The notes below the pieces were generated by a model. It saw only the letters and a list, made by a program, of their open reading frames with translations. It was not told the origin of the DNA and ran no database searches. 62,479 bases of DNA from Rhizobium sp. Q54. Lineage in GTDB: Bacteria; Pseudomonadota; Alphaproteobacteria; UBA2966; CAIVPW01. Location: NCBI GenBank assembly GCA_945889645.1, contig CAMDCA010000007.1:1-62479 (forward strand), in the 5' to 3' direction. Numbering within the stretch: position 1 is the first letter of the stretch; every line of letters begins with the position of its first letter. A program made the translations under genes and the position numbers. Positions 39,671-62,439 of this stretch are shown in pieces.

Positions 39671-40234
39671 ATGCGGAACGCCCTTCTGGGCTTGATGTGC
39701 GCGGGTGCACTGGCCACTGGCGTTGCGGCCCTGCCGGCGCAAGCCGACCAGACCGATCCGCAGCTCAATTTCCTCTTCCAGCAGCTGTACGAAGCGCCCA
39801 ACGCCGCCACGGCGACGCGCTTCGAAAACAACATCCTGCGCGTCCTGTCCCAATCGGGCAGCGCCACCGCCGACCTCCTGCTGCAGCGCGGCACCGAGGC
39901 GATGAACAGGGGCGAGTTCGAGCTGTCTCTCACCACCCTCAACTCGCTCATCAAGCTGCAGCCGAATTTCGCTGAGGCATGGCACCGCCGCGCGACGCTG
40001 TACTTCCTGACGGGGCGCCTCGACGCCTCGATCGCCGATTGCGAGAAGGCGCTGTCGTTGGAGCCCCGCCACTTCGGCGCCTGGGCCGGTCTCGGGCAGA
40101 TCTACATCATCCTCAACCGCCGGAATGACGCGATGCGCGCCTTCCAGCGCGCCTTGGCGGCCAACCCGCACCTTGCCGGCGCGCGCCGCTATCTCGATGC
40201 CGTCCGCCGCATGGACGGAGGGCGCGAGATTTGA
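39671..40234 (+). CDS. Exported TPR protein
   Basis: The 187-residue product has a signal peptide (LLGLMCAGALATGVAALPAQA) and three TPR units: RGTEAMNRGEFELSLTTLNS, WHRRATLYFLTGRLDASIAD and WAGLGQIYIILNRRNDAMRA. It starts either at ATG 39671 or at ATG 39635, which overlaps the glcF stop as TGATG. The signal peptide favours the former, the coupling pattern the latter. Its role beside glycolate oxidase is unknown. Confidence 0.78.
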   Translation: MRNALLGLMCAGALATGVAALPAQADQTDPQLNFLFQQLYEAPNAATATRFENNILRVLSQSGSATADLLLQRGTEAMNRGEFELSLTTLNSLIKLQPNFAEAWHRRATLYFLTGRLDASIADCEKALSLEPRHFGAWAGLGQIYIILNRRNDAMRAFQRALAANPHLAGARRYLDAVRRMDGGREI

Positions 40235-40252
40235 GCGCCCGCCGCCGGCCGC

Positions 40253-40310
40253 TTGACCAAGCACACGCTGCGTCATATTCTCTAGTCAGCCGCTTAGGAA
40301 ACTAGAGAAT
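40253..40310 (+). promoter_or_regulatory. Rrf2 gene promoter with a perfect inverted repeat over the -10 and start codon
   Basis: TTGACC (40253-40258) and TATTCT (40276-40281) are 17 bases apart. The inverted repeat ATTCTCTAGT (40277-40286) and ACTAGAGAAT (40301-40310) is perfect over ten bases with a 14-base spacer. It overlaps the -10 box and reaches the ATG at 40309. Binding by the Rrf2 product would block its own transcription. Confidence 0.65.
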
Positions 40311-40767
40311 GCTTACCCAAAAGGCCAAGTACGGTCTGAAGGCGCTCGTCATGCTGGCGCAGCAGGACACGGGTGAGTTCACCTTGGTGGCGGAGATCGC
40401 GCAACGGCAGAAGATCCCGCGCAAGTACCTTGAGCTCATTCTCCTCGAGTTGCGTAAGCAGGGGATCCTGCACAGCCAGCGCGGCAAGAACGGTGGCTTT
40501 CGTCTGGCGCGGCCGCCGGCCGAGGTCACGTTTGGCCAGGTGATCCGGGTCCTAGACGGCCCGATCGCCCCGTTCCCGTGCGCCAGCCTGACTGGCTATC
40601 GCAAGTGCGAGGACTGCGCCGACGAGCAGGTGTGCGCTGTGCGCAAGGCGATGCGCCAAGTCCGCGATGCCATGGCCGAGATCATCGATTCAACCACGCT
40701 GGCGGATGCGGCAGCCCCTGCGTTGGTGCGTGATGTAACGGCGGAACCGGCGCAGGCAGCCGTCTAA
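40309..40767 (+). CDS. Rrf2-family transcriptional regulator
   Basis: The 152-residue protein has the Rrf2 winged helix (KAKYGLKALVMLAQQD, then IPRKYLELILLELRKQGIL and SQRGKNGGFRLARPP) and a C-terminal segment with Cys91, Cys100, Cys103 and Cys109 (CASLTGYRKCEDCADEQVC). The cysteines suggest an Fe-S cluster or redox sensing as in IscR or NsrR. It lies just upstream of the sulfate transporter genes, so control of sulfur uptake, as by CymR-type Rrf2 proteins, is a good inference. Its own promoter carries a perfect inverted repeat. Confidence 0.88.
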   Translation: MLTQKAKYGLKALVMLAQQDTGEFTLVAEIAQRQKIPRKYLELILLELRKQGILHSQRGKNGGFRLARPPAEVTFGQVIRVLDGPIAPFPCASLTGYRKCEDCADEQVCAVRKAMRQVRDAMAEIIDSTTLADAAAPALVRDVTAEPAQAAV

Positions 40768-40858
40768 CGCGGCGCGCGCCCGGCGCGCTGACCCGAGCTA
40801 GGCCCCAGCGGACGTACCGCGAACGTGCTCTGGAGTTGCCCGGAAGAGCCTCGGCTAT

Positions 40859-40886
40859 TTGTCTACTCTTTCGATTAGCATATATG
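40859..40886 (+). promoter_or_regulatory. Likely promoter of the sulfate transporter operon
   Basis: TTGTCT (40859-40864) and TATATG (40881-40886) are 16 bases apart in a locally AT-rich stretch, about 30 bases before the sulfate-binding protein ATG. The -35 region reads ATTTGTCTACT, which resembles one half of the Rrf2 repeat (ATTCTCTAGT). Confidence 0.5.
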
Positions 40887-40915
40887 TCAACTTGGCAGTG
40901 GACAGGAGCAGCAAA

Positions 40916-41950
40916 ATGGAGCGCAATAGTCGCATGGGAGGTCGGTTCCGCAATTGGATCGCAGCCGCGGTCGTTGCGCTGGGGGCTCTTTCGCCTGCTG
41001 GTGCCGGCGCACAAGCGCTGCTCAACGTCTCCTACGATCCAACTCGAGAGCTCTACGAGGCGATCAACAAGGCCTTCGTCGCCGACTGGAAGGCCAAGAC
41101 GGGCCAGACCATCACCGTTAACCAGGCCCACGGCGGTTCGGGCGCCCAGGCCCGCGCTGTGATCGACGGCCTCGAAGCCGACGTCGTCACGCTCGCCCTG
41201 GCCTACGACCTCGACGTGATTGCCGCCCGCGGCCTGTTCCCGGCCGACTGGCAGAAGCGCCTGCCGCAGAACAGCACGCCCTATACCTCGACCATCGTGT
41301 TCCTGGTCAAGAAGGGCAACCCGAAGGCGATCAAGGACTGGGGCGATCTGACCAGGGCCGGCGTCCAGGTCATCACGCCCAACCCCAAGACCTCGGGCGG
41401 TGCGCGCTGGAACTATCTCGCCGCGTGGGCGTGGGCGCTGAAGCAGCCGGGCGGCACCGAGGCCAAGGCCAAGGCATTCGTCCAGGCGCTCTATAAGAAC
41501 GTACCCGTGCTCGACACCGGCGCCCGCGGCTCGACCGTGACCTTCGCCCAGCGCGGCCTCGGTGACGTCCTGCTGGCGTGGGAGAACGAGGCGTTCCTCG
41601 CGCTGGACGAGTTCGGCAAGGACAAGTTCGACATCGTCGTCCCGTCGTTCAGCATTCTGGCCGAACCGCCGGTGGCCTTGGTCGACAAGAACGTCGACAA
41701 GCACAAGACGCGTGTACTGGCCGAGGCGTACCTGAACTTCCTCTACACGCCGGCGGCGCAGAAGATCATCGCGTCCAAGCACTACCGTCCGCGCGACACC
41801 GCGGCGGCCAACCCGGCCGATCTCGCCCTGTTGCCCAAGCTTGATCTGATCGCCATCGACGATCCGGTGTTCGGCGGCTGGGCCAAGGCGCAGGCAACCC
41901 ACTTTGCCGACGGCGGCGTGTTCGACCAGATCTACGCAGGCGCTCGCTAG
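40916..41950 (+). CDS. sbp: Periplasmic sulfate-binding protein
   Basis: The 344-residue product has a signal peptide ([20 protein letters not shown]) and then the sulfate-binding family words [66 protein letters not shown] and [19 protein letters not shown]. It delivers sulfate or thiosulfate to CysT/CysW. ATG 40916 has GGAG eight bases upstream. The open frame from a TTG at 40859 is inside the likely promoter and is not used. Thiosulfate-binding CysP is the alternative. Confidence 0.93.
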
Positions 41951-41955
41951 TCCTG

Positions 41956-42789
41956 ATGTTTGCGTTGCGACGTCCGAGCGTATTGCCTGGCTTTGGCCCG
42001 ACGCTCGGATTCGCACTTTTCTATCTCAGCCTCATCGTCCTGATTCCGCTGGCTGGACTGTTCTTCAAGTCGGCGGAATTGGGATGGGAGGGTTTCGTTC
42101 GCGCCGTCTCGACGCCGCGCGTTCTGGCGTCCTTCCGCCTCACCTTCGGGGCCGCGTTTCTCGCCGCGCTGCTCAACGCGTTCGTCGGTTTCCTCGTCGC
42201 CTGGGTGCTGACGCGCTATCGCTTCCCCGGGCGGCGCGTCATCGACGGCCTCGTTGACCTGCCGTTCGCCCTGCCGACGGCCGTGGCCGGCATCGCACTC
42301 GCGACGCTGTACGCGCCCAATGGGTGGATCGGCAGCATCCTCGACAAGGTGGGTATCAAGGTCGCCTACACGCCGGCCGGCGTCTGGGTGGCGCTGGTTT
42401 TCATCAGTTTGCCGTTCGTCGTGCGCACCATCCAGCCGGTGCTGCAGGACCTCGAGCCCGAGATCGAAGAAGCTTCGGCCAGCCTGGGCGCGCGGCGTTG
42501 GCAGACATGGCTCTACGTCATCATCCCGGTACTGCTTCCGGCGATGATTACCGGCTTCTCGCTGGCGTTCGCGCGCGCGCTCGGCGAGTACGGCTCGGTG
42601 ATCTTCATTGCCGGCAACCTGCCGTTCCGCTCTGAGATCGTGCCGCTGCTTATCTTCGTTCAGCTCGAGCAGTACAACTACGCTGGCGCCGCAGCGATCG
42701 CGACGGTCATGCTGATGGCGTCGTTCATCCTTCTGCTGATCATCAATGTGCTGCAGCGGTGGACCGCCCGCCGTCATGGAGCTGACTAA
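41956..42789 (+). CDS. cysT: Sulfate ABC transporter permease CysT
   Basis: CysT (CysU) is one half of the inner-membrane channel. The 277-residue protein has about six helices, DLPFALPTAVAGIALATLYA, the EAA loop segment EIEEASASLGARRWQTWLYV and ARALGEYGSVIFIAGNLPF, all typical. It starts five bases after the sbp stop and ends directly before the GTG of cysW. Confidence 0.94.
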   Translation: MFALRRPSVLPGFGPTLGFALFYLSLIVLIPLAGLFFKSAELGWEGFVRAVSTPRVLASFRLTFGAAFLAALLNAFVGFLVAWVLTRYRFPGRRVIDGLVDLPFALPTAVAGIALATLYAPNGWIGSILDKVGIKVAYTPAGVWVALVFISLPFVVRTIQPVLQDLEPEIEEASASLGARRWQTWLYVIIPVLLPAMITGFSLAFARALGEYGSVIFIAGNLPFRSEIVPLLIFVQLEQYNYAGAAAIATVMLMASFILLLIINVLQRWTARRHGAD

Positions 42790-43670
42790 GTGGGCCAGGC
42801 GACTCCGCGCTTGCTCCGGCCGCCGCCGCCCACCACCGAGCCCTTCGCGGTGAAGTGGGCGCTCATCGGCACGGCTGTGCTGTTTATGCTGCTGTTCCTG
42901 GTGATGCCGCTTGCCGCGGTGCTGTCCGAGGCGTTCAGCCGCGGCATCGGCACCTATTGGGCGGCGATCACCGATCCCTATACGCTCAAGTCGGTGCGGT
43001 TGACCCTGCTCGTCGCGGCCATTTCGGTGCCGCTCAACGTCGCCTTCGGCATGACTGCGGCGTGGGCGATCGCCAAGTTCGAGTTCGTCGGCAAGAGCGT
43101 GCTCATCACCCTGATCGACCTGCCGTTCTCGGTCTCGCCGGTGATCGCCGGCCTCATCTACGTCTTGATGTTCGGCGCCCAGGGCTGGATTGGCCCGTGG
43201 CTGATCGACCACGACATCCGGATCGTCTTCGCGGTCCCCGGCTTGATCGTCGCCACCACGTTCGTGACGTTCCCGTTCGTCGCCCGCGAAATGATCCCGC
43301 TAATGCAGGACCAGGGCACTGACGAGGAAGAGGCCGCGATCCTGCTCGGCGCCAGTGGCTGGCAGACCTTCTGGCGTGTGACGCTGCCCAACGCCAAGTG
43401 GGCGCTGCTGTACGGCGTTCTGCTGTGCAACGCCCGCGCCATGGGCGAGTTCGGCGCCGTCGCGGTTGTCTCCGGACACGTCCGCGGCGTGACCACCACG
43501 ATGCCGCTGCAGATCGAGATGCTTTACAACGAATACAAGTTCGCCGCTTCGTTCGCGGTCGCTTCGCTCCTGGCATTACTGGCTGTCGTGACTCTCGTAG
43601 TGAAGGCCACATTGGAGTGGCGCTTCGGCGAGGAGCTTGCCGCCGTGCACCGGGCGCCCGGAGGAAAAGT

Positions 43671-43674
<4 letters not shown>
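42790..43674 (+). CDS. cysW: Sulfate ABC transporter permease CysW
   Basis: CysW pairs with CysT. The 294-residue protein has [20 protein letters not shown], the EAA loop [20 protein letters not shown] and [19 protein letters not shown]. It begins at GTG 42790 with no gap after the cysT TAA and overlaps cysA by four bases (ATGA), so translation is coupled along the operon. An extra Pro-rich N-terminal stretch precedes the first helix. Confidence 0.94.
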
Positions 43675-44768
<1,094 letters not shown>

Positions 44769-62335: not shown

Positions 62336-62377
62336 CAGTGTTCCTTTCAGAGGCGAGTAAGGGAGATTCTCTACCCC

Positions 62378-62439
62378 CGGGTATAGAAAATACCCGTATT
62401 CGCGGCGCCACCATAATCAGCGTGCCTGGGGGCAATCAA
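62378..62439 (-). promoter_or_regulatory. Upstream region of pal: candidate promoter and hairpin
   Basis: On the minus strand TTGATT (62439-62434) and TATGGT (62415-62410) are 18 bases apart and could serve pal. Downstream, CGGGTAT and ATACCCG (62378-62384 and 62390-62396) form a seven-base stem in the leader. No gene is seen in 62336-62479; tolB should end just outside. Confidence 0.4.

Follow-up and report, generated by a model that had tools for sequence, protein, structure and literature searches.

The DNA in front of the rrf2 gene in the 62,479-nucleotide stretch analysed here (the window) carries what is, with good probability, an operator through which a CymR-like Rrf2 repressor of sulfate acquisition regulates its own gene; a second copy of this operator lies at the adjoining sbp-cysTWA genes. 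This reading draws on computed features, namely the anatomy and conservation of the site, its recurrence at sulfur genes, and the CymR-like fold and four invariant cysteines of the encoded protein. Since a shared site recurs before the neighboring genes of sulfate import and before sulfur genes of many other bacteria, it is very probable that the regulator governs sulfur uptake as well as its own expression. The coordinates of the features are collected in Table 1.

Table 1. Positions in the window of the rrf2 promoter, the candidate operator sites and the associated genes.
Feature	Position	Strand	Basis
-35 box TTGACC, rrf2 promoter	40253..40258	+	consensus scan
-10 box TATTCT, rrf2 promoter	40276..40281	+	consensus scan; TATTC kept in orthologues
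O1, putative canonical 25-bp Rrf2 operator ATTCTCTAGTCAGCCGCTTAGGAAA	40277..40301		expectation-maximisation motif from orthologues, 16.9 bits
R, third, displaced consensus-like right half-site ACTAGAGAAT, overlapping the start codon	40301..40310		genus comparison
rrf2, CymR-like Rrf2 regulator with four invariant cysteines	40309..40767	+	Pfam PF02082, alignments, fold search
O2, second putative operator copy TTTGTCTACTCTTTCGATTAGCATA, upstream of sbp	40858..40882		15.0 bits, same motif model
sbp, sulfate ABC transporter substrate-binding protein	40916..41950	+	NCBIfam NF008022, 477 bits
cysT, sulfate permease subunit	41956..42789	+	TIGR02139, above cut-off
cysW, sulfate permease subunit	42790..43674	+	TIGR02140, above cut-off
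cysA, sulfate transporter ATP-binding protein	43686..44768 (start putative)	+	TIGR00968, above cut-off

The preliminary description had drawn attention to a perfect 10+10 inverted repeat over the -10 box and start codon of rrf2. This repeat is real and can be read directly in the sequence: its arms, ATTCTCTAGT (40277-40286) and ACTAGAGAAT (40301-40310), are separated by a spacer of 14, and the right arm overlaps the ATG of rrf2 at 40309-40311. In this GC-rich window, perfect 10+10 repeats are in themselves common (24 overlapping matches, versus 6.4 per Markov-simulated window); those with at least six A/T per arm appeared in none of 20 simulated windows, and the chance of a perfect 10+10 repeat in a 78-bp stretch of local composition is P = 0.0016. 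The genome (2.33 Mb) contains a single instance of the pattern ATTCTCTAGT-N(10-18)-ACTAGAGAAT. The placement of TATTCT 17 bases past TTGACC, also claimed previously, agrees with a direct check of the positions, and a promoter scan returned this pair as the sole sigma-70-like site between 40150 and 41000. TTGAC stands at the same position upstream of the orthologues in genus members and in several other families.

The element that is conserved across families and phyla, as revealed by comparison of orthologues drawn from genomes of the genus, family and class and from named genomes, is a 25-bp pseudo-palindrome, ATTCtCTA-N9-TAGaGAAT, with a CTA-N9-TAG core and the usual Rrf2 geometry. Its representative at the rrf2 promoter is O1, whose left half L (40277-40286) is identical with the left arm of the perfect repeat and whose right half M (GCTTAGGAAA, 40292-40301) sits 9 bp ahead of the right arm. 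Other alphaproteobacterial families retain the left arm TATTCTCTAGT upstream of rrf2, and there the palindrome is complete after 25 bp, as exemplified by ATTCTCTAGTTACCCTATAGAGATT (L010) and ATTCTCTAGTGATCCTATCGGGAAT (L038). A test of spacings peaked at CTA-N9-T[AC]G, present in 15 of 39 sulfate-transport-linked rrf2 regions versus 1.2 in shuffles, and CTA-N9/10-TAG was found in 10 of 23 sbp regions versus 0.5 in shuffles. Expectation-maximisation on the sets of rrf2 and sbp regions yielded the palindromic motif ATTCtCTAtcaAnTtgaTAGaGAAT de novo. Two sites only, O1 and O2, exceed 9 bits in the window, the motif having been trained on sequences that included both of them; a Markov background gave 0.5 matches above 9 bits per 62 kb and a top score of at most 12.8 in 16 trials. 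The fit of the window to the canonical model is imperfect, because the right half of O1 is weak (5.5 bits) and the core of O2 is one base longer than canonical (N10). A pseudo-palindrome of about 25 bp at the regulator's own promoter, the form expected of an autoregulated Rrf2 operator, is found both as O1 and at the orthologous sites. The earlier proposal of such an operator, spanning the -10 box and start region, is well supported by comparison, whereas the exact site proposed is not: upstream of orthologous rrf2 genes the left arm is conserved and the right arm is confined to the genus of the window, and the 10+14+10 repeat was accordingly rejected as the conserved operator.

The perfect repeat exists because this genus carries a third consensus-like right half-site, R, downstream of the canonical one. 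When the ten bases ending in the AT of the ATG are treated as a right half-site, R scores 12.0, 13.1, 9.8, 8.4 and 13.1 bits across the five genus members and outscores the canonical right half in every one of them; the same position in 115 other rows (some redundant) has a median of -2.9, and the chance that a sequence reaches 8 bits in this way is about 0.5%. R is displaced past the canonical place by 9 bp, or by 8 bp in one relative (G004). Based on these scores and this position, the genus has three half-sites, L-M-R, of which L and R make up the perfect repeat, and in the window the copy of R is perfect while M is weak. By the same measure, the right arm of the preliminary description is not noise, reading as a near-consensus third half-site in all five genus members. 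A second register that uses R gives a 25-mer scoring 8.0 bits, and R may represent a wider operator, a second register or a constraint on the translation start. It is unlikely that the 34-bp L-R repeat, with its spacer of 14, is itself the operator of this genus, contacted by a wider-reaching dimer or by two overlapping dimers, with M merely a Shine-Dalgarno sequence. The superiority of R over the canonical right half would favor such an arrangement, as would the number of positions at which L and R agree, 10, 9, 6, 8 and 9 out of 10 across the five genus members. However, the spacer is 13 in G004, an R-type third half-site is absent both from the sbp sites of the same genomes and from the sites in other families, all of which use the 25-bp form, and covariation between L and R, considered as proof of a 34-bp dyad, was not significant (24 of 120 permutations were at least as good).

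Turning to the second copy of the 25-bp operator, the expectation that sulfate-import genes adjoin rrf2 was borne out by NCBIfam and TIGR models for sbp-cysT-cysW-cysA. The order rrf2-sbp-cysTWA is conserved, and linkage of rrf2 to sulfate-transport genes is kept in many alphaproteobacterial families. A homologue of O2 precedes sbp, or in one case (G003) a stub of sbp, in all four genus relatives. The O2-type core CTANTNNNNNGATTAG was matched exactly once per genome, and always at sbp, in four of the five genus genomes; because the sites themselves supplied the pattern, this result speaks to specificity and not to discovery. Contig C182 of G003 (L033, L006) lacks most of sbp, a short 5' stub of which lies between the O2-type site and cysT. 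An imperfect inverted repeat, GTCAACTTGGCAGTGGAC, is located between O2 and sbp in the window (40886-40903) and is nearly unchanged in all five genus members. In G007, a member of the family, sbp is preceded by two operator-like sites some 85 bp from each other (L163:2002-2026 and 2087-2111), which suggest tandem operators.

A wider regulon in the genus was considered and rejected, since pattern and covariance-model searches gave rrf2, sbp and one unexplained site in G003. No operator was found near cysK, cysI or cysH in the genus; with no site near cysK or cysI-cysH, the regulon there would be small. On contig C126 of G003, a 25.9-bit covariance-model match, TTAGTCTATCGAAATACTAGACAAT (L185:1501-1525), has a sigma-54 activator-like open frame nearby and no recognised sulfur gene beside it. 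The window also contains a near-perfect operator look-alike with N10 spacing, ATTCTCTACCCCCGGGTATAGAAAAT (62366-62391), just upstream of pal; it was rejected as an operator, relatives keeping parts of this promoter region without the palindrome.

Recurrence of the motif in other bacteria was assessed in 52 loci outside the motif training set, with positions within 400 bp of rrf2 counted as near. Sites above 17 bits numbered 31 in the 62.6 kb near rrf2 versus 3 in the other 542 kb, a density some 90 times higher near the gene than further off, although redundant Rhizobium copies inflate this figure. A strong site near rrf2 is present in 29 of the 52 loci and absent from 23, and we count approximately eight independent lineages, because many of the sites are Rhizobium copies of a single one. 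Among the genes adjoining these outside sites are cysH, genes of sulfate transport and cysteine-synthase-like genes, and such neighbors occur in contigs with an Acidobacteria or Bacteroidota label as well. Sites in Rhizobium adjoin an APS/PAPS reductase and that in Rhodoblastus a cystathionine-beta-synthase-like enzyme; in a Bacteroidota-labelled MAG, whose contig label may be wrong, the neighbor is a DASS-type anion symporter, and in Pontibacter, Adhaeribacter and an Acidobacteria-labelled MAG (again, a label that may be wrong) the sites adjoin TonB-dependent receptors. Further operator sites occur at an SsuA-like protein, a porin, sbp and cysT. Predicted operators thus recur at genes of cysteine and sulfur acquisition, the class of genes controlled by CymR.

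The protein belongs to the Rrf2 superfamily (PF02082, 139.5 bits; TIGR00738, 129.2 versus a cut-off of 73.3; fold matches) and reaches the cut-off of no equivalog. Behind the superfamily model, the highest-ranking NCBIfam equivalog is CymR (NF047409, 83.6 versus a cut-off of 195 bits); IscR (TIGR02010, 72.2 versus 207.55 bits), NsrR (NF008240, 59.8 versus 182 bits) and RirA (NF008886, 57.8 versus 193 bits) likewise fall below theirs. The four clustered cysteines reported previously are C91, C100, C103 and C109; the pattern C91-x8-C100-x2-C103-x5-C109 is invariant in 44 of 44 homologues and suggests a metal or Fe-S centre. Among PDB entries ranked by sequence, a Thermincola Rrf2 protein came first and CymR next, and an AlphaFold model (44 homologues; pLDDT 88.8) had B. 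subtilis CymR as its best fold match, structure 2y75 being the nearest solved fold (35% identity, TM 0.77/0.90). In the annotated plasmid records examined, these Rrf2 proteins carry generic annotation only.

The genome encodes at least one other Rrf2 protein, beside cysK. Its gene, which is devoid of the cysteine cluster, lies at L146:960-1418 (G000 contig C4), directly before a cysK open frame (1366-2412) that it overlaps, and the Rrf2-cysK pair is present in the other genus members too. That another regulator, for example this cysK-linked paralogue, uses the operators is very unlikely: the paralogue resides in the same genome and operator geometry can be common to Rrf2 proteins, yet it is the four-cysteine rrf2 gene that the motif accompanies from lineage to lineage, and no copy lies around the paralogue.

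The four-cysteine protein and its operator can be compared with several studied systems. CymR, the Rrf2 master repressor of cysteine metabolism in Bacillus subtilis and Staphylococcus aureus, provides the nearest solved fold and has sulfur-acquisition targets, but shows a gap where the protein of the window carries its four invariant cysteines; CymR uses CysK as a co-factor (PMC3828012). The Fe-S regulators IscR, RirA, NsrR, RisR and RsrR share the fold and have a cysteine cluster in the same region; they differ from the window's protein, which has C-x8-C-x2-C-x5-C spacing and targets predicted in sulfur uptake, not isc/suf or NO genes. Operator geometry agrees with studied Rrf2 systems, in that the thiol/quinone sensors HypR and SifR (operator TGTAA-N9-TTACA, PMC9218516) have the same 5+9+5 frame, with different half-site letters and target genes, and RsrR uses 25-bp full sites, and also half-sites (PMC5015018). 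The operator is unlike that of RisR, GAC-N7-GTC (PMC9973013), and the earlier remark that the half-site is not a familiar one for Rrf2 regulators such as IscR, NsrR, CymR or RirA fits this comparison, which covered the RisR and HypR/SifR operators.

Given the CymR-like fold and the sulfur targets, the simplest model would be repression when sulfur is sufficient, release on starvation and negative autoregulation. An Rrf2 homodimer would bind O1, over the -10 box and likely transcription start, and O2 would be bound likewise; as O1 covers both the -10 box and the likely start point, binding should exclude polymerase. When sulfur is plentiful, occupied operators would block RNA polymerase at the rrf2 and sbp promoters, and under sulfur limitation the protein would release the DNA, whereupon uptake and the regulator itself would rise. 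What we infer here is that the protein binds and represses, that sulfur is the signal and, if one exists, the metal or Fe-S centre. An mRNA hairpin of the two arms, which would mask the start codon in transcripts running through from the upstream glc/TPR genes and act on translation, is scarcely credible. In its favor, the segment 40272-40330 folds to -16 kcal/mol (z = -2.55), and a scan of 40150-41000 found nothing resembling a terminator. However, the left arm, which overlaps the -10 box, is absent from transcripts of rrf2's own promoter, and the hairpin was rejected on this ground. The structure without that arm is not beyond chance, and the arm is conserved in families that have no complementary right arm.

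As an extension of the repressor model, it is conceivable, if rather doubtful, that a separate CymR-like Rrf2 subfamily, with a metal or Fe-S centre on its four cysteines, acts as a widespread repressor of sulfur acquisition in Alphaproteobacteria and some other phyla, and that the three-half-site operator in the genus of the window provides two registers for different protein states.

Autoregulated Rrf2 repressors and the control of sulfur metabolism by CymR are already known. Within the literature searched, the novelty lies in the operator of the four-cysteine subfamily and in the way it recurs at sulfur genes of different phyla; that literature gave no description of the present regulator, and RegPrecise, which lay outside the search, may hold a prediction. 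CysB is the sulfur regulator of gamma- and betaproteobacteria and, to our knowledge, is not the usual one in Alphaproteobacteria. A defined operator found repeatedly at sulfate transporters, at cysH and at cysteine-synthase-like genes makes the regulon testable in a group to which Rhizobium and Azospirillum belong, and poses the question of whether a four-cysteine relative of CymR may link sulfur supply to Fe-S or redox status.
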